The position numbers were made by a program, and so were the translations under genes. DNA of 8,811 nucleotides from JBHIER01 sp046760705 [NCBI: bacterium] (GTDB taxonomy: Bacteria; JBHIER01; G020348925), in NCBI GenBank assembly GCA_046760705.1, contig JBHIER010000111.1, positions 1-8,811 on the forward strand, in the 5' to 3' direction. Below are positions 1 to 8,811 of the stretch, one piece after another; within the stretch, counting starts at the first letter, position 1; every line of letters starts with the position of its first letter. The notes below the pieces were generated by a model, which was given only the letters and a program-made list of their open reading frames with translations, did not search any database and was not told the DNA's origin.

Positions 1-3000
1 ACCACATCGAGATGGCCGTCAACCGGGCGTGTGCCGGGGAAGTTACCCGAGTCGTCCAGGGGATCGGAGCGGCGCACGGAGACTGGTCCGGAGAGCACCA
101 GGCTCCTGTCGGGCAGACAGTCACCGTCTAAGTCTATGCCCACCAGCGCCCCGGAGGGCATGTGGTCCATCCCGGCCGGGCACTGATCGACCCAGTGCGG
201 CCCAGGGCCGCAGTCCTCACAAGAGCTGTCCGGCTCGCAGGCGTCGTCTTTGCCGTTGCCGTCCAGATCGCCCAGACATTGAGTCCCCGGCCCTTGGGGA
301 GTGCCGCCCAGAGCGATACAATCGCTCTGGGTCTCCTCCGAGCATGAGCCATCGCGAAAGCAGCAGGCCTCGGTGGGCGGCGGCACCACGTGGCGCGCAT
401 GAACCCGGTAGCCCACCAACTCCCCGGCCTCATCGAACAACTCTATCAGAACGTTCTGCGGCGGCAGATAGACCGCCACCGGAGGAATACAACAGATCAC
501 CGACTGCATCAGCAGCGGCTGCTCGTTGTGCAACGTTCCCATCATCGTCTCGATCTCAAAGAAGACATCGAAGAAGCTGTCGGCGCAGTAATCGGCACAG
601 CCCTGTCCGGCTTTGGCCTTGATCTGCCCCAAGGAGGGCTTGACCGGACTCTGGCGAATAGTGACCCCTCCGTCGACCAGATCCAGTTGTAGGATCTCCG
701 TATCAATCTGCCGGCGACAGTCCCCAGGATCATAAGGATCGCTGCGGTGAACGGTTGTCGGTCCAGTCAGAGTCATGTTCATCTGCGGGCTGCCAGCGAT
801 GATGAGCCCCACGGTCAGAGAGGTATTGAAGTGATCGTCCCCTTCAGGCGGGAACTCCTCACACACGGTGGTGTCGGGATCGCAGGCATCACCGTAGTTG
901 TCCCCATCCTCATCGGCCTGATCGGGATTGGCCACATCCGGACAGTTGTCGCAGAAGTCACCCACACCATCGTTGTCCTCATCGGCCTGATCGGGATTGG
1001 AAACATCAGAGCAGTTGTCGCAGACATCGCCCACGCCATCCCCATCTCTATCGGCCTGATCAGGATTGGGATCATCCGGACAGTTGTCTTCGATATCCGG
1101 AATGCCGTCATTATCGCGGTCCACTTCGGAAGGCTTGATGGTGAAGTCGTCGCTCATATCGCAGCATTGAGGATCCTCGCAGTCGCATATCCTCAGCAGA
1201 CAGTCGGGGGAGGGGGTGTCGGGTATGGTCCACAGATACGACCCTGTATCGGGCATGCAACAGGCGATGTCCAACCAGGTCTTACCACCATCGGTGGTGT
1301 ATTGGATACATACTTGGCCGCTGGTGCCGAAGGAACCCCACTCGATGGTGTGCTCTTCCCCCACATACCAGTACTCACCTCCGATCGGCGACCTCAGGTC
1401 GATGATGCACGGTGTAGCGCACCCCCATCCGAAGACGTTGAGAGCCAGCCAGTTATTGCTGGATTCGTTTAAACAGATGATGCCGTCGCCGTCCCAATCA
1501 CCCTTGTCCCATATATTGGCATCGCCCATGACGAAGAAGCATCCGCCGCCTTCAGGATTGCTGACCGCCATCACTGGCTCATAAGAGTGGGACCCTGTTA
1601 CTTTGGGCAAAGGTTGGCCTTCCAGGGCTGAGACTCCTGATGAAGCCCCTCCTCCCGCCTTGGCCGTCGCAGATGTGGTATAAGAGTCCTCATCACCCCA
1701 GGCCACCACCAGGCCTGGCGAGGTCGCCTGGACAGACGAACCGGCGAAGGGGACCACTCTCCACAGACCCTGGGTGACAGGATGGGTGGCAAAATTGGGT
1801 ATGTGCGGCCAGAAGGTGGGGCCCTCGTTGTTGGTGGGATCGTGGACCGCATCGGCCGACAACTGTACCCCTGTCCCGAAGTGGGCGAGGATGGTGTTCA
1901 ATATCGGCCTGGCTGCATCCGCCGGAGACCACCCCTTCCAATCTCCGATGACCACGATCTGCTTGCCGTCCTTGAGAAACTGGGCCATAGCATCCAGCTC
2001 TGCTCTACTGTAACTCTGTTGCGGCAGCATCAGAACCAAGACGTCGGCGGCCGATATTTCGGCATAGGTTAAGGAAGTGGTCAGAGAAGCCACCGAATAG
2101 CCGGAGGCAATGAGAAGATTGCCCAGCTCAGTGAAGCCATCCCAAAGGGTGTAGTTGCCAAGGGCCCCATCGTAGGCCCATCCGTGGGTCTCGTCGAACA
2201 GTATGTCCGCCGGAGCGTTGTAGATGACGAAGTTCTGGTCGCTGATGTCCCAGGGTGTGCCGTCGGCCGCATCGGAGACCCGGACCCGACAGGAGGTTGA
2301 GGGGGTGTTAGGGACAAACCACCAATGGCCTCCATCATTCGCAGTGCTCCCGACAATGGTCATCCATGTAGTGCCAGCATTGGTGGAGTACTCGATCTCA
2401 ACATTGCCGGCAAAGTTCTCCGAGGTCCACGTAATGAGCCGATAAAGACCCACCGGCCAATTCTCACCGCCGTTGGGCGAGGTGACCGTAATCTGCGGCA
2501 CACAGATAGTGAAGTTGTCGTTGCTCTGATCACAGCACCCGCGATCCTGAACATCACAGATTCTGACCAGACAGTTGGATGAAGGCGTATTCGGTATCGT
2601 CCACCCATAGGATCCATCATCGGCCGTACTGCTGACCACCGTCTGCCAACTGGACCCACCATTGGTCGAATACTCGATCTCCACGTTGCCGCTCGTTCCC
2701 TGGGAGGTCCAGGTGATGGTCCGGCTCTCCCCCACACACCAGTTCTCCCCACCGTTGGGTGAGGTGACGGTGATGGCACAGGGAAGAACGGTGATCCTGT
2801 CGTAGAAGTACGTAGCGTTATTGTAAGTGAAATCATCGCTCCCGAAGCCGTTGATGGTGACTATGGCGCCAACGTAGTATTGACCAGCGGGGATACCTGT
2901 CGGCACCGTGGTGCTATAGTCGCCCACATTGTAACACTCTCCACAAAAGCTCGTCCAATACCAATACCCTCCCATCTGATAGTCTCCGGTGCTGATGATG

Positions 3001-4676
3001 TTATTCGTGGAGAGGTAGAACCGAATCCGAACGTCGGAGAGGGCAGAGTAACTCATGTTCTCCACTGTCACGTTGTTGAGCGTAATGGGGTCCCCTGGGT
3101 AGTAGGTGGCTGCATCGGTGTAGGAGTTGTGAAGACCGTTCGACGCCCAGTACGATTCCACACCGATATCTCTGGTGCTCAGTATTGAAGTCTGGTCGTC
3201 ATATATCCTCCTGAAAAGGTAGGCGCAGGGCCGATGGATACCCCACCCATCTTCGACACGGTTCCAATAGTAAGCATGCATGACCGAAGGCTGGTCGTAG
3301 TCGTACGTCTCGGTGTAGGTTCCATCCTGATACCCCCAGGTATGCCCGAGCTCGTGCATGCAGACTGGCAGGAGAAGAATCACGCCCGAATTGCCGATGG
3401 AGACGTCAGGGTCGTCGGTCCAACTGTAGGCCGGATTCCACATCACATCGGATTCCTTAATCTCACAACAATCGCACCACCACCAATAGACGGTCATCCC
3501 AATGGAACCGTCCCAGCTAAAACCATAAACACTGTTGAGATGGGCCTCATCAACCCATCCAGAAAACTCGTTTTCGCCGTTGTGCCACCCATACGTACCG
3601 TCATCGTCTGTGTAGCGATAGACGTCCATGAAGTAGTTCCATGTCGCCATGGCACTGTTATTGATGACCCAAGACCACCACGACTCGGGCACCTGCTCCA
3701 TCACCAGATGGAGATCCTGGTAGCCGCACGCACCCAGAGCTCCGCCGGTGATGACCCCGCTTCTTTCACCAGTCTGGGCAGACTGAGAATTGCCGTCAGC
3801 TTTAGGGACATGCAGATGCGGTGGGGGTTGCTTCGGATCGAATTCATCCAGTCTCCGCAGCCGAGATGGATCGGCCAGCTTGAGATTCTCCACCTCCACT
3901 CGCTGGCCATCGCTTTTTTTGTAGAGGAGCCCCTGGCCTTCGAGTTTGAGCATTCTCTTCTTGATGGGTGTGATGAGAGCCTTGTTCTTCACATGGAGCA
4001 TAAACTCTTCGACGGACAGTGGGGAGCCCTCGACAGTTTCCAGGCGGCTCATCCTGGCCGATGACCTCGGGTCGTTGGAAGTGGGTGGCCCTACAAGGGT
4101 GTCTTCAGATTTAGGGGCAACGATCAGTCCGCCCCTGATCTCCGAGACCCTCTCTCTACTCGCTTTGAGCCCTTCAGCATCAAAACCTAAAACTGCTTTA
4201 CCCCCCGCGGTGAGAATGTAGGATTGGCCCGTCTGTGCATCCTTCACCACCTCAAACAGGCCCTGATTGCCGCCCACGATTGGATTCGCATACCTTTTGC
4301 CATCATCGAAGGCGAAGATAAAATACCGGTGGCCCATCTGAAGTTCCGGGGTCCCGCTGACTTTGACGCCGCGGCCCTCCAGAGTGCCTCCAGCAAAGGT
4401 GAGCCGGATCGTCTTGGAACCTTTCTGCAGAGAGCTCCTTTTGGCGTGCACTAAGGAGATGTCCTCAAAGAGGACATCGGTGAAAATCATGGTCTGCTGT
4501 TGATTGACCCAGCAACTCTCCTGGGCAGCGGTTCCAACAAAAATCAAGTCTGCGGTCTGGGCGACCTCTTCAAAGGACAAGTGGATCTGAAGACCGGAGA
4601 CATTCTGAGGCACCAAAAGTGAAAGTAGAAAAAACACTCCCAAACATATGCCCCCCATAGTTTTGATCGTGCGCAT
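1..4676 (-). CDS. Secreted multidomain metzincin metallopeptidase (3' end outside window)
   Basis: A single open frame of 1558 complete codons from ATG 4676, with no stop before the window edge. A GGGAGGG ribosome binding site lies 7 nt upstream. Residues 1-28 look like a signal peptide (MRTIKT, then hydrophobic [10 protein letters not shown], probable cut after VSG). Residues 29-146 form a domain of the 'ADLIFVGT ... GGNQGLFEV' kind, and 147-310 a charged linker; together they are probably a propeptide. The catalytic region is about 317-500, with [12 protein letters not shown] (408-419), zinc motif [11 protein letters not shown] (441-451) and Met-turn SVM (Met466). Then come a CARDB-like domain (501-632), SPNGGE Ig-like repeats (634-724, 729-818), a DUF4350/amidotransferase-fold-like domain (823-1085), a third Ig-like repeat (1091-1180), thrombospondin type 3 repeats (1186-1266) and Cys-rich modules (1272 on). 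A Zn-dependent extracellular endopeptidase is well supported; its substrate is unknown. Asp as third zinc ligand occurs in snapalysin (M7) and InhA-like M6 peptidases, but I cannot assign the family. Any C-terminal sorting signal would lie outside the window. Confidence 0.95.
3..155 (-). repeat. 'GPxxVxRSDPxD' module, copy 2, cut by the window edge
   Basis: Residues 1508-1558: [20 protein letters not shown] followed by a DGHLDV segment lines up with copy 1 ([17 protein letters not shown]). The protein therefore contains at least two of these modules, and more may follow outside the window. Confidence 0.5.
489..836 (-). repeat. 'GPxxVxRSDPxD' module, copy 1 (within metallopeptidase gene)
   Basis: Residues 1281-1396: [44 protein letters not shown] and LHNEQPLLM are the landmarks. 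I know similar unnamed modules in large exported proteins of Planctomycetes and FCB candidate phyla, but no function for them. A Cys-rich unit (residues 1437-1480, ACCFRDGSC then [23 protein letters not shown]) separates it from copy 2. Confidence 0.5.
879..1121 (-). repeat. Three thrombospondin type 3 calcium-binding repeats
   Basis: Residues 1186-1266. Three units follow the pattern DxDxDGxxDxxDNCPDxxNPDQADx[29 protein letters not shown] and [14 protein letters not shown], closing with [12 protein letters not shown]. The Asp positions bind calcium in the known TSP3 family and the paired Cys residues stabilise the wire. In exported bacterial proteins such arrays are usually rigid calcium-dependent spacers. 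The DNA of units 2 and 3 is also near-identical in stretches (NPDQADED). Confidence 0.92.
1137..1406 (-). repeat. SPNGGE-like Ig-like repeat, copy 3 (within metallopeptidase gene)
   Basis: Residues 1091-1180: [59 protein letters not shown]. It is more diverged than copies 1 and 2 and separated from them by the DUF4350-like domain. This suggests that domain was inserted between units of a repeat array, or that the third unit was added later. Confidence 0.7.
1422..2210 (-). other. DUF4350/amidotransferase-fold-like domain inside the metallopeptidase
   Basis: Residues about 823-1085. The order is ILFDETHGW at the start, [15 protein letters not shown], a predicted strand [25 protein letters not shown], then IVVIGDW. 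A later segment has HPVTQGLW and [10 protein letters not shown]. This layout matches the Rossmann-like 'DUF4350 / class I glutamine amidotransferase-like' domains used as accessory units in secreted proteins. No catalytic Cys is evident at the nucleophile position, so a binding or structural role is more likely than amidotransferase activity. The family assignment is from pattern only. Confidence 0.55.
2223..2492 (-). repeat. SPNGGE Ig-like repeat, copy 2 (within metallopeptidase gene)
   Basis: Residues 729-818, directly after copy 1. It shares [36 protein letters not shown] and CRVRVSD, ending in NFVI. The DNA is also similar between copies 1 and 2 in the first half. Confidence 0.75.
2505..2777 (-). 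repeat. SPNGGE Ig-like repeat, copy 1 (within metallopeptidase gene)
   Basis: Residues 634-724. The pattern is SPNGGENW, then [22 protein letters not shown], a [14 protein letters not shown] turn and CLVRI, ending in NFTI. It looks like the small Ig-like fold of Kre9/KNH type that is common as tandem spacers in secreted proteins of FCB-group candidate phyla. The close match to the next copy shows internal duplication. Confidence 0.75.
3324..3356 (-). other. Metzincin zinc-binding site HExxHxxGxxD
   Basis: Codons 441-451 read [11 protein letters not shown]. His441, His445 and Asp451 are the expected zinc ligands, Glu442 the general base, and Gly448 the turn glycine of metzincins. Met466 in PSVMHAYY, 15 residues after Asp451, fits the Met-turn. 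The catalytic residues look intact, so the enzyme is probably active. Confidence 0.9.
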
Positions 4677-4683
4677 TATATTT

Positions 4684-4690
4684 CCCTCCC
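4684..4690 (-). promoter_or_regulatory. Ribosome binding site of the metallopeptidase gene
   Basis: On the minus strand GGGAGGG is followed by 7 nt and then ATG at 4676. It decides the start: the next in-frame ATG (codon 7) has no comparable site, and ATG 4676 gives the basic N-region of the signal peptide. Confidence 0.8.
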
Positions 4691-4885
4691 GAAGGTGAAA
4701 AGGTTGACGGTTAAAGTCGAATGAACAGAGAAAAATATGGCAAATATCACCTCCTTTCCCTAAACCGATAACCAAAACCAATATCACCTGCCAAAAAGAC
4801 CGTTACCTCCTTCGAAAACGGGTTGAAAGTTAGGGGTGAAAGAGGCCTTCGACTATCACATGGCAAGGCCAAATTCTTATTCTGT

Positions 4886-5109: not shown

Positions 5110-5133
5110 CGTAGGGGCGGACGTCCCTGTCCG
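5110..5133. repeat. Short palindromic intergenic element (GTAGGGGCGGACGTCCC type)
   Basis: CGGAC (5118-5122), a 6-nt loop, then GTCCG (5129-5133), preceded by CGTAGGGGCG. It resembles the short 'GTAGGGGCGG...' palindromic repeats dispersed between genes in many uncultured FCB-group genomes. That resemblance is from memory; only one copy is in this window. A second small inverted repeat, ATGCG/CGCAT (5094-5098, 5105-5109), lies beside it and could serve as a weak terminator for the upstream small gene. Confidence 0.35.
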
Positions 5134-5157: not shown

Positions 5158-5190
5158 GCTCTTTGTTCTGCGCCCTCTGCTCCCGCTCTA
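5158..5190 (-). repeat. Second copy of the AGAGCAG-type repeat, intergenic
   Basis: On the minus strand this stretch has AGAGCGGGAGCAGAGG, a middle segment, then CAAAGAGC. It resembles the insert in the T9SS domain (AGCAGAGAGCAGAGAGC ... CAAAGAGC), including the shared 8-mer GCTCTTTG on the plus strand. Translated, it gives EREQRAQNKE against SREQRAWSEEQRAESRE. A 10-nt piece, CCTCTGCTCC (plus strand), occurs at 5174-5183 and again at 5218-5227. Confidence 0.55.
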
Positions 5191-5639: not shown

Positions 5640-8600
5640 CTATTTCAAAAGAATCATTCGTTTTGTGCTCACATAATTGCCCGCCTTGAGTCGATAGAGA
5701 TAGATACCGCTGGGCAGGTTCATGCCTGAGTTGTCCCGTCCATCCCAGTTGACAGAATATTCGCCAGGCTCAAGTTGTTCGTTCACCAGTGTCTTCACCT
5801 CCTGGCCTAAGATGTTATAGACTTTGAGCGTAGTGCGAAGAGCGGAGAGCTCAGAGACCGAACTCACCTCTCTACTCTCTGCTCTTTGCTCTTCGCTCCA
5901 TGCTCTCTGCTCTCTGCTGGGGATGGCGTAGCGGATGGTGGTGGTGGGATTGAACGGATTGGGGTAATTTTGGAAGAGCGCATACTGTTGAGGGAAAAGT
6001 TCTGTCACCTCGACCGATGTCGTGCCCACAATTTTTTCCTGGCCGTTAGAACATAGAGCCCCGAGTTTGTAATGATAGGTGCCCTCCTGCCCAATCGAGC
6101 GGTCGATGTAAGAATAAGGACTCGAACCAGTGATCAAACCTTCGGTATTGATCTTTTCGAACTCTGCATCTGATGAGCTCCGATAAAGGTTAAAACCCAC
6201 AAGATCCGTCTCGGTTGAGGTCGCCCACCCAAGAACGACAAAGCCTCTTTGCCAAGTGGCATCAAAACTGGCAAGCTGAACTCCTAGGGTTGGTGTAGAT
6301 CTGGTAAATCCGCCGTTACTCGTTGAGAATGGGGTTGGTGGGGCTAGACACACCGGACAATCATAAAATTCAACGTTTGATAAGATTAACGGAAAATAGC
6401 ATGGCGGTGCATTAGAGGTCACATCGAATATGATATCGACAACAGCTCCATTACCGGGGGCAATGTCATTATAGAAACAGACAACAAAGACACGTATGCC
6501 TTCATCGATGCTACTCCAATTGAAAATTTCAACAGAATCTGTTCGTTCGGTCCGCATCACATCGGTCACCGATAGAACATTGGTATCAAAATCGAGATCA
6601 AATTGGATACCATACACTTCCATCTCATTGTCCAGAATTATAGGCACCAGGTTACCTCTGCTGCCTGCACCTCCTGAGCCACCGCCGACAACAAGGGTGG
6701 CCCAGTCGCCAATTACAGTGACCACACCGTCGACAACAGTAATCGGAATCTCCTCTCCTGGTGAGTCGGAAATGACAACTTCAGTGAGGGTCAACTCCGC
6801 ATCACCCAGAGGAGCGTTATCTGACACGTCAAAATAAAAGTCTGCAACGGACTCGGTCCCAGGTCCGACAGTTTCACCACTGACATCGGAGATGCGAACA
6901 CTCACCTGATCAGGAGATGTGTGGGACCAATCGAAAATCGACATCACCTCGCTCCTTTCCGTTGGTGTCACATTGGTTAGTGTTAATACATCTGGATCGT
7001 AGCCTAAAGTAAATAGTACTGCGGATACTGCTATCCCGTTGTGTAACTTAATACTCACCCGGTTATCGCGGCTGGCACGATCGAACATACCTCCCACAGC
7101 CATCAAGGCCGCCTCCCCGAAAATACCTTCTCCAGTCAAATACAGAATCACTTCAGGTTCGTCGGAGTCGTCAGACCTGATAATCACATCACCACTGATC
7201 TCGCCCTCTGTCCAGGGCATAAAAGTCACAGTAACATCAATACTCGAATCCTGCGGAATCGTCTGGGGAAAATGAGGTGATGTGACCACAAAGTCGGGGA
7301 TTTCAGATGAGACTTGGTCAATGACCAAATCGCCACTGCCCCTGTTAGACACCGTCGTCACCCAGTCGACAGAACTGCATACGACCACCTCTCCGAAATT
7401 GTGCGAGGTGGCGGATACATCTATGTCCGGTCGCTTTCCGTATCCGGCTAATGAGACACTAATCAGGCCTTCATCAGGGTCATCACTGCCAACACTCAGC
7501 AGCCCCTCAATTGCTCCCTCTGTAGATGGGGTGAAGGTCACTATTACCCCCAGAGCGTTGCCTGGCTCTATGGTCTGAGGAAAGGGGGTGGCGATGGCGA
7601 AGTCTGGATTATCAGAAGATATGCTGTTGATATTCAGCTTTACTCTTCCCTTGTTGGAAATGGTCAAAGTCCAATCGGCAGAACTCCCTACGGCCACGCT
7701 TCCGTAGTCATGGAAGGTCACGGGTACATTTATATCAGGCAAATCCACCGTGAACACACCGTCTACTGACACAACATCAATGGGGCTATGGTCAGCATCG
7801 TATAATTCGACGTCGGAGAGAGCAAGTGAGACCTCACCGAAGGAGATTCGGGCGGCAACATCAAAATAGAAATCTGCTATTGATCCTCTTCCAAGTTCAA
7901 TGAGCAAGCCGGTGTTGTCAAAAACCGATAGAGTCACCTGACCTGAATCGGATTGTTCCCAACGAAACGTGCTCATCCCCTCCGTTCTGGCGGTGGGGAT
8001 GACGGCAGACAGCGTCAATGAAGTGGTATCGTAGTTCAAAGTGAACTGAACTTTCGCCACCTCCACTGCATTATAGAGGTCGACAGGTACCCTGTTGTGA
8101 GCGCTGCCAGGGGTACCGGAACCTCCCACCACTCGCAGGGCTGCGTCACCGGTTACGATGAAGACACCATCGACTGTGGTGGTGGGAATGGGGTTCGCCA
8201 GTCGATCTGACACGATTACGTTTGATAGACTCAAGGCCACATCGCCAGGAAGAGCGTCAGGAGCGACGTCGAAGACAAGATCAGCCACCGATCCCTTTCC
8301 AGGGGTGATCTCATGGCCAATGCCAGTCATAACCACTCTGACAACTTCTGGAATCTGCTCCCCCCAATTGAAGATATCCATGACATCGGCCCCAGTCCTG
8401 AACGTCCTGGCGACATCGGATATCGAAAGTAAATTGGGATCAAAACCGAGATCAAATTGCATTGCAGCCACACTTACACTGTTCTCCAATTCGATGGGCA
8501 CCACCATGCCCATACCCCCAGGAGGTCCAATTCCTCCGGCAACGATCAGAATTGCTGTACCTTCCGCTACACCGTTACCCCTCACGTGGAGATAGAACCT

Positions 8601-8811
8601 TCTGTCCTCCGGGTCGTTAGTGTCTATGCTCACAACGGCCGATACCGTTCCCATAACTTTCGGGATGAAGGTGAGTGTAAGCTGCAGGCTATCTTTTGGG
8701 GCCACAAACTGAGGGAAAAATTGAGGTGCATCCACCCCAAACTCAGAACGATCTGCGGCAATAGAGTCAATGCGCAGAGCTGCTGACCCGTAGTTGTAAA
8801 TGGTAAATGGC
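5640..8811 (-). CDS. T9SS-exported protein with four cohesin-like domains (5' end outside window)
   Basis: Open from the window edge (first whole codon 8810) to TAG 5642-5640, 1056 codons visible. The internal Met at 8735 is not the real start, because the frame continues upstream with HYDIN-domain sequence. Counting from that Met: HYDIN/ASPM-type Ig fragment to residue 56; cohesin-like domains 60-195 and 197-330; HYDIN-type Ig 333-432 and 436-537; cohesin-like 541-674 and 678-812; FN3-like 818-912; T9SS type A sorting domain 916-1031. Each cohesin-like unit shows the VPVxLxN, VxFTLxYD, LxLxxV, FxW, GxGSxADxxFDV and DGVFxV landmarks. Known cohesins bind dockerins, but outside cellulosomes their partners are mostly unknown. 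The product should be exported by the Sec system, moved across the outer membrane by T9SS and held at the surface or released. An insert inside the sorting domain is described separately. Confidence 0.95.
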   Translation of the reverse strand, partial: PFTIYNYGSAALRIDSIAADRSEFGVDAPQFFPQFVAPKDSLQLTLTFIPKVMGTVSAVVSIDTNDPEDRRFYLHVRGNGVAEGTAILIVAGGIGPPGGMGMVVPIELENSVSVAAMQFDLGFDPNLLSISDVARTFRTGADVMDIFNWGEQIPEVVRVVMTGIGHEITPGKGSVADLVFDVAPDALPGDVALSLSNVIVSDRLANPIPTTTVDGVFIVTGDAALRVVGGSGTPGSAHNRVPVDLYNAVEVAKVQFTLNYDTTSLTLSAVIPTARTEGMSTFRWEQSDSGQVTLSVFDNTGLLIELGRGSIADFYFDVAARISFGEVSLALSDVELYDADHSPIDVVSVDGVFTVDLPDINVPVTFHDYGSVAVGSSADWTLTISNKGRVKLNINSISSDNPDFAIATPFPQTIEPGNALGVIVTFTPSTEGAIEGLLSVGSDDPDEGLISVSLAGYGKRPDIDVSATSHNFGEVVVCSSVDWVTTVSNRGSGDLVIDQVSSEIPDFVVTSPHFPQTIPQDSSIDVTVTFMPWTEGEISGDVIIRSDDSDEPEVILYLTGEGIFGEAALMAVGGMFDRASRDNRVSIKLHNGIAVSAVLFTLGYDPDVLTLTNVTPTERSEVMSIFDWSHTSPDQVSVRISDVSGETVGPGTESVADFYFDVSDNAPLGDAELTLTEVVISDSPGEEIPITVVDGVVTVIGDWATLVVGGGSGGAGSRGNLVPIILDNEMEVYGIQFDLDFDTNVLSVTDVMRTERTDSVEIFNWSSIDEGIRVFVVCFYNDIAPGNGAVVDIIFDVTSNAPPCYFPLILSNVEFYDCPVCLAPPTPFSTSNGGFTRSTPTLGVQLASFDATWQRGFVVLGWATSTETDLVGFNLYRSSSDAEFEKINTEGLITGSSPYSYIDRSIGQEGTYHYKLGALCSNGQEKIVGTTSVEVTELFPQQYALFQNYPNPFNPTTTIRYAIPSREQRAWSEEQRAESREVSSVSELSALRTTLKVYNILGQEVKTLVNEQLEPGEYSVNWDGRDNSGMNLPSGIYLYRLKAGNYVSTKRMILLK
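5643..5990 (-). other. T9SS type A C-terminal sorting domain
   Basis: Residues 916-1031 counted from Met 8735: FQNYPNPFNPTTTIRYAIP, then TTLKVYNILGQEVKTLVN, GEYSVNWDGRDNSG, LPSGIYLYRLKAGNY and a basic RMILLK end. This is the standard Por-secretion C-terminal domain that directs cargo through the outer-membrane T9SS translocon. The loop between the first and second strands is normally about five residues; here it carries 28 more (repeat at 5835-5918). Confidence 0.93.
5835..5918 (-). repeat. In-frame palindromic repeat insert in the T9SS sorting domain
   Basis: 84 nt, 28 codons, keeping the frame. The minus strand begins AGCAGAGAGCAGAGAGC, continues with AGCGAAGAGCAAAGAGC, and ends GAGCTCTCCGCTCTTCGC. 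A perfect 9-bp inverted repeat, GCGAAGAGC/GCTCTTCGC (plus strand 5835-5843, 5888-5896), spans much of it. It encodes SREQRAWSEEQRAESRE followed by a Ser-rich tail. It sits exactly where the sorting domain has a short surface loop (YAIP before, TTLKVYN after), so it is probably tolerated. Confidence 0.7.
6300..7115 (-). repeat. Tandem pair of cohesin-like domains (second pair)
   Basis: Residues 541-674 and 678-812 counted from Met 8735, with GEAALMAVGG/DWATLVVGGG starts, FTLGYDP/FDLDFDT, SIFDWS/EIFNWS and ADFYFDV/VDIIFDV. The second domain carries Cys residues (CFYND, APPCYFP, YDCPVCLAPP) that the other three lack, so it may contain disulfides. Confidence 0.75.
7125..7739 (-). repeat. Two HYDIN/ASPM-type Ig domains between the cohesin pairs
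   Basis: Residues 333-432 (PDINVPVTFHDYGSVAVG ... FAIATPFPQTI ... VTFTPSTEG ... DDPDEG) and 436-537 (PDIDVSATSHNFGEVVV ... HFPQTIPQ ... VTFMPWTEG ... DDSDEP). The pattern is that of 'choice-of-anchor D' / ASPM-SPD-2-Hydin domains, used as spacers in surface proteins. A similar domain is cut by the window edge at 8811. Confidence 0.8.
7746..8558 (-). repeat. Tandem pair of cohesin-like domains (first pair)
   Basis: Residues 60-195 and 197-330 counted from Met 8735. Both share a start of the TAILIVAGG/DAALRVVGG kind, VPIELEN/VPVDLYN, FDLGFDP/FTLNYDT, an IFNW/TFRW core, a GKGSVADLVFDV/GRGSIADFYFDV strand and a closing VDGVF. This is the jelly-roll beta-sandwich pattern of cohesins and related surface domains. 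The pair is a duplication. Confidence 0.75.

Follow-up and report, generated by a model that had tools for sequence, protein, structure and literature searches.

An in-frame AGAGCNN heptad hairpin in a T9SS sorting domain and its probable origin from a dispersed repeat element

The insert and its host gene

The stretch of DNA analysed in this study, here called the window, comprises 8,811 nucleotides. Most of its second part is occupied by a gene on the minus strand that encodes a secreted protein and carries the insert studied here. The features of the window are as follows (+ and −, strand).

5640-8810, −: host gene from the list of open reading frames, secreted protein of at least 1056 residues, open at the window edge
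5835-5918, −: in-frame insert of 84 nt, 28 codons as read, net gain 23-24 codons (from sequence, frame and tail comparison)
5868-5918, −: 5' arm, AGAGCNN heptad array of about seven units (Tandem Repeats Finder, period 7, 7.3 copies)
5851-5867, −: hairpin loop or core (inverted-repeat search and fold)
5825-5850, −: 3' arm, three to four reversed heptads NNGCTCT (four-unit pattern with 2 mismatches)
5835-5843, no strand assigned: one arm, GCGAAGAGC, of a perfect 9-bp inverted repeat read from the sequence, partner at 5888-5896
5158-5183, +: second, degenerate half-array of AGAGCNN-type heptads, intergenic (GCTCTNN x4 with 3 mismatches; none in 200 shuffles)
5111-5133, +: GTAGGGGCGGACGTCCCTGTCCG, by eye similar to the GTAGGGGCG palindromes of two other genomes (G206 and G064, see below); adjoins the half-array

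Pfam detected Cohesin, HYDIN_VesB_CFA65-like_Ig (HYDIN/ASPM-type), FlgD_ig and Por_Secre_tail in the host protein, in which three cohesin-like stretches were found. The FlgD_ig and Por_Secre_tail matches identify its terminal part as a sorting domain of the type IX secretion system (T9SS), and the beta-sandwich fold expected of such a domain was recovered along with the profile. An AF2 model of the tail (five-sequence alignment, mean pLDDT 75.5, about 46-66 in the insert blocks) resembles the folds of FlgD and of T9SS C-terminal, sorting-domain or substrate structures, with modest E-values in the structure search (Vpr as best match, 6e-4; FlgD, 1e-3; T9SS NucA substrate complex, 3e-3). The model has strands at residues 22-28 (TIRYAIP) and 58-63 (TLKVYN), and the insert is placed between them as a low-confidence, partly helical segment. 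Thus, in agreement with the original prediction, the insert is predicted to sit in a loop that joins two beta-strands of the sorting domain. In viral_contigs, the one collection searched, there was neither an orthologue of the entire protein nor a relative of the portion that precedes the insert. The neighbouring large ORF (3-4787) encodes thrombospondin type 3 repeats and contains three 69-nt DNA repeats at 907-1113.

The distance from NPFNP to the conserved Y-N is 47 residues in the window tail. Among 34 tails from other genomes a spacing of 23 is most frequent, and both tails of L071 have 24; none of the measured tails of other genomes carries the AGAGCNN array. Therefore, the net gain amounts to 23-24 codons (69-72 nt). 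It had been predicted that 84 nt at 5835-5918 lie in frame within a sorting domain and add 28 residues. The stop-free frame, the Pfam matches and the tail spacing bear out the in-frame position, and 28 is the number of codons as read, but not the number by which the tail is extended. The 3' border is uncertain, because the hairpin arm extends to about 5825 and thereby into conserved codons. By eye, no target duplication was evident at the insert, such as accompanies the insertion of MITEs, which rely on the transposase of a related autonomous element. A flanking direct repeat, CTACGC, was considered and rejected, since the left copy is not at the border but precedes conserved codons.

The insert consists of 7-nt units in tandem, in which some positions are constant and others vary, as in heptamer repeats, and has a facing array in inverted orientation, as in inverted heptamer pairs. 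The motif AGAGCNNAGAGC matches the window 12 times with at most one mismatch (eight in the insert, four elsewhere), compared to 0.41 matches expected from dinucleotide shuffles. A four-unit heptad pattern with at most three mismatches gave eight matches, of which seven lie in the insert and one at 5158-5183; no match occurred in 200 shuffles. The insert also folds better than shuffled sequences (z −3.35, 1 of 200 shuffles as good; z −2.81 and 2 of 300 in a second run). In the computed fold the 9-bp repeat that had been noticed before forms an uninterrupted stem, and it turned out to be part of a larger, imperfect hairpin with arms of 31 nt (5826-5856 and 5875-5905) that are 77% complementary.

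The insert is free of stops in the frame of the host gene and has stops in both other frames of the coding strand. A sequence that is open in the useful frame had been put forward as a property of the element itself. The frame in use is indeed stop-free; however, this openness is in part a by-product of the 7-nt units. Since 7 and 3 are coprime, every frame of a given strand translates a uniform heptad array into an identical heptapeptide cycle, and nine of the 16 possible AGAGCNN units yield uniform arrays that are open in all six frames. In random mixtures of 12 AGAGCNN units, a given coding-strand frame is open in just 18-24% of cases.

Dispersed AGAGCNN arrays and the origin of the insert

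AGAGCNN arrays were found in phage-like contigs as well as in cellular genomes. When the 2.9 million contigs of viral_contigs were scanned for four AGAGCNN units, 67 stretches were returned, and the hairpin form was present in 10 stretches on 6 contigs. Out of 64 viral arrays, 27 lie within some stop-free spanning frame, many of them perhaps by chance. An IMG/VR contig of 36,994 bp (IMGVR_UViG_3300044960_000747, G005) contains 10 distinct strict AGAGC hairpins (control, 0), eight of which contain the core ACACAGATTCTGGTCTC or a near variant of it in either orientation. This contig also carries related GGGAGCA heptad arrays, and elements with near-identical flanks are located close to both of its ends (L078/L079).

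In genomes the strict hairpin pattern is rare: it occurs in 3 of 297 genomes of the phylum, presumably Desulfobacterota, of a record titled as a Syntrophaceae genome (G002), with no match for the control. Twelve hand-picked genomes were compared for overlapping matches to AGAGCNN x3 with at most one mismatch. G206 and G182, which are assigned to one genus and both belong to the three genomes with hairpins, gave 209 and 122 matches (control, 0 and 1), and the ten remaining genomes gave 0-10 (control, 0-2). We examined 40 arrays of G206, taken in listing order. In all of them, AGAGCNN is interspersed with other short units, and a crude rule for calling ORFs places 30 of the arrays between genes. 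The 3' end of a called ORF is no more than 20 nt away in 12 of the 40 arrays, and a called 5' end in three. Among the ten arrays that this rule places inside ORFs, some of the ORFs are spurious (one, L257, follows a stop codon). A facing, reversed partner within 120 nt was present for nine of the 40 arrays compared to 0.1 expected from shuffles. Thus, hairpins are over-represented in G206, yet 31 of the 40 sampled arrays are one-sided by this rule, so that hairpins are the exception among them. At the one orthologous intergenic site compared, G206 and its congener G064 both have heptad arms, with the palindrome TAGGGGCGATTCATGAATCGCCCCTA in place of the core in G064. Within or next to heptad arrays, GTAGGGGCG palindromes were seen at four loci of G206 (L249, L251, L278, L279) and one of G064 (L295), and perhaps at 5111-5133 of the window. 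A comparison of 20 hairpins showed arms that differ in unit and number; a common core was considered as well and dropped, since several of the compared loops have unlike cores. The NPFN motif of sorting domains was absent from the examined stretches of G005, G206 (40 loci) and L025, the locus described next.

A second in-frame case was found in an unrelated gene. In contig L025, an ORF of 713 residues with a Mu portal domain (Portal_Mu, E 2.7e-108) contains an in-frame AGAGCNN hairpin. Of 41 relatives of this portal protein, 15 from Mu-like phages of IMG/VR (L182-L196) were aligned, and 13 of these are distinct in the linker that corresponds to the hairpin. The ten closest distinct relatives have, by eye, repeats of differing units in the linker: AGAGCNN (L182), AAAGCAG (L183), GAGTCAC (L184), AACGATG (L186), AGAGGGC (L188), TCAGTCA (L189) and an octad of the AAGATACG type (L191), with palindromes of the GGGAC..GTCCC type or similar in L185, L187 and L193. 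AAATCAC is the unit in L196, and the linkers of L194 and L195 are short and lack an array. When lags of 4-12 were tried on the 13 distinct linkers, periodicity was significant at lag 7 in seven and at lag 8 in one (0 of 300 shuffles each), and five showed none. Nine of the 13 reach a fold z of −2 or below, compared to 1 of 39 random segments from the same genes; L184, L189, L193 and L195 do not, and L194 does although it has no array. F[AS]E-like motifs occur on both flanks in 11 of the 13 linkers. The DNA of the paired copies is mostly unlike; therefore, if this is a target duplication, it is an old one. The encoded peptides are mutually unlike and none is conserved.

We consider it probable that the insert represents, within coding sequence, one copy of a dispersed hairpin of heptad repeats, with a 5' arm (AGAGCNN)n, a short core and a 3' arm (NNGCTCT)m. 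Certain genomes and phage-like contigs contain such arrays and hairpins at scattered, predominantly intergenic positions, and one hairpin copy would have entered the T9SS host gene as DNA, with another copy as its source and recombination or a transposition-like process as the route. The element would probably have moved in trans, by means of its own hairpin. The insert may have survived where it landed because the site is a loop between two beta-strands and because it comprised a whole number of codons and was stop-free in the frame used. Afterwards, the heptad units would turn over through slippage and exchange. It is tempting to speculate that units without stops are those able to enter genes. 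We infer mobility from the dispersal of the element, from its recurrence in an unrelated gene and from the differences seen in place between related sites. The proposal that the insert may represent a non-autonomous mobile element is partly supported, by the dispersal of the unit and of the hairpin design among other genomes and contigs, by the predicted loop position, by the in-frame case in the portal gene and by the lack of this array in other tails.

The main rival is a local birth of the repeat, in which the heptads arose by replication slippage within a native loop rich in purines, a template switch copied them back as the inverted arm and nothing moved in. The variation of units within one array would be accounted for, as would the missing target duplication in the window and the predominance of one-sided arrays in the G206 sample, and differing unit families at the same portal linker are what recurrent local births would yield. 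Heptameric tandem repeats are, moreover, described as widespread in prokaryotes without known cause in the SPADE study (PMC6344855). However, both the AGAGCNN unit and the arm-core-arm design recur across unrelated genes and genomes, in two genomes at high copy, and independent slippage is not expected to pick the identical unit. In addition, the window itself contains the second half-array outside genes. We therefore regard a purely local origin as unlikely, though still the most serious competitor of the dispersed hairpin.

Other repeats in T9SS tails

A further alternative arises from the tails themselves. In a genome of the Cloacimonadota (G004), 27 tails were examined among 113 tail matches, and 19 of these 27 have an NPFNP-YN spacing of at least 28 (L126 and L134 read by eye). 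Two recurrent in-frame DNA repeats, carried by tails of this genome (L119-L138, L154-L181, L223-L239), account for many of these long spacings. The repeat GCCGGACGCAG, which directly follows NPFNP, was counted 27 times with at most one mismatch; by rule, 21 of the 22 sites examined are in tails, and the 22nd is, by eye, a truncated tail. A repeat of the type GGGCTTCGTTCAACTTCG.. or GGGCTTCGTTC.., which occupies the same tail loop as the window insert, was found in T9SS tails at 17 of 17 sites. As the examined sites of these repeats were found in tails only, we rejected the idea that they are dispersed throughout the genome, and it seems that a loop insert can also spread together with its tail. 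Small palindromic inserts were also seen in T9SS tail loops (TGTCCGCCCTGGCGGA in L122, TGTCAGCCTTGGCTGA in L132), in some of them as an additional insert, and the tail loops of L230 and L232 contain similar ..TCPPW.. peptides.

The window insert might accordingly be a loop variant that arrived with the sorting domain and was passed on between paralogous T9SS tails when these recombined or were duplicated, not as a free element. The restriction of both G004 repeats to tails and the many long spacings in that genome are in line with such a route. AGAGC arrays and hairpins, in contrast, lie outside T9SS tails in the phage-like contig G005, at the 40 loci of G206 and in the portal gene of L025, and the half-array of the window is intergenic. 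We judge this explanation somewhat less probable than local birth; it is partly compatible with the dispersed hairpin, which could enter a tail once and then spread with it. Finally, a charged, Ser-rich linker under selection, encoded repetitively by chance, would fit the charged and hydrophilic peptide and its partly helical model, but is very improbable given the inverted-repeat architecture and heptad conservation, which are features of the DNA, the mostly intergenic position of same-unit arrays in G206 and the absence of a conserved peptide at the common linker of the portal relatives.

The combination of an AGAGCNN array and a T9SS tail was also sought directly. Among the 84,980 species of genome_contigs, 5 stretches have a pair of exact AGAGC units shortly after NPFNP. 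Two of these (L068 and L071) represent T9SS tails, but their repeat is of a different, ACAGAG type. The other three (L069, L070 and L072) were rejected, as there is no tail at the match. With only two such tails in genome_contigs, both of the other repeat type, the exact combination found in the window is rare.

Relation to known repeat elements

The insert had been likened to the Rickettsia palindromic elements. These are hairpin repeats that occur in frame in unrelated protein genes and also between genes, as described in the sections consulted of PMC2229807 and PMC10969869, and like them the window insert lies in frame in a conserved protein. The likeness holds for the way in which the insert works, that is, as an in-frame hairpin. 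Membership is not supported, because there is no conserved family of about 105-150 bp and no conserved peptide: according to the same sections, the Rickettsia families are of that length and conserved in both sequence and peptide, whereas the insert is pieced together from 7-nt units and its kind of arm is variable. In our best reading, it acts like a Rickettsia palindromic element but belongs with the heptamer repeats of Xanthomonas and Nostoc.

For these heptamers, PMC4692102 gives the units GGGAATC and GGGANTN as well as GGGGA[T/C]T, with 70 convergent pairs that form inverted repeats in Xcc and 75 in Xac. Like the AGAGCNN arrays, they consist of heterogeneous 7-nt units that are dispersed, mainly intergenic and located just behind the upstream gene. 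Heptads that overlap genes are already known from the same source, in which 11% (Xcc) and 7% (Xac) of the heptamers overlap a gene at least partly. The unit differs, however, and in the present case a hairpin lies in frame inside a conserved domain and portal relatives differ in their units at one linker; in-frame domain insertions are not described in the Xanthomonas section of that paper. In the literature searched, which took in few subscription papers, no report of in-frame heptad hairpins was found. Short tandem repeats of cyanobacteria were reportedly described by Mazel in 1990, and very small mobile repeats are said to have been treated by Elhai in 2008.

Tandem heptamers are the most abundant repeats in prokaryotic intergenic regions and their function is unknown, as stated in the parts consulted of the SPADE study (PMC6344855). 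The AGAGCNN arrays share their period of 7 and wide species range; hairpins and coding insertion are not described in those parts. The TAACTGA direct repeats of Beggiatoaceae are heptamers too, mostly intergenic and suspected of transmission between distant lineages, but the excerpts of PMC4679880 considered here mention only one inverted set. Forward TAACTGA units have stops in all three frames, and the authors note their restricted positions within genes. In this respect they differ from many AGAGCNN units, and the constraint agrees with a view in which entry into genes is open to units that lack stops. PARCEL is likewise a protein-coding palindromic repeat of patchy distribution, but from what is given in the part of PMC2996958 used here it is a tandem protein motif of 25 residues with a conserved amphipathic pattern.

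Coding copies of heptad elements are of value as they represent bordered insertion events in conserved proteins, and replacement can be traced in the Mu-like portal family, which includes relatives without an array. If the elements move, they would be a source of new protein loops beyond Rickettsiales. A broader and less likely possibility is a class of elements with 7- or 8-nt units, often hairpins, whose units are specific to lineages and which move among genomes, phages and protein linkers, with units and cores replaced in place and one mechanism setting the period of 7 or 8 nt. Should this be true, the elements would repeatedly land in T9SS loops and in the linker of the Mu-like portal, where selfish repeats would become protein segments.

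REP and REPIN elements are associated with a RAYT transposase. The GTAG start of the GTAGGGGCG palindromes brings GTAG-tagged REPs to mind, which we mention as a lead only; REPs are palindromes of 20-40 bp tagged with GTAG or CGTC, as stated in the portion of PMC3733652 consulted.
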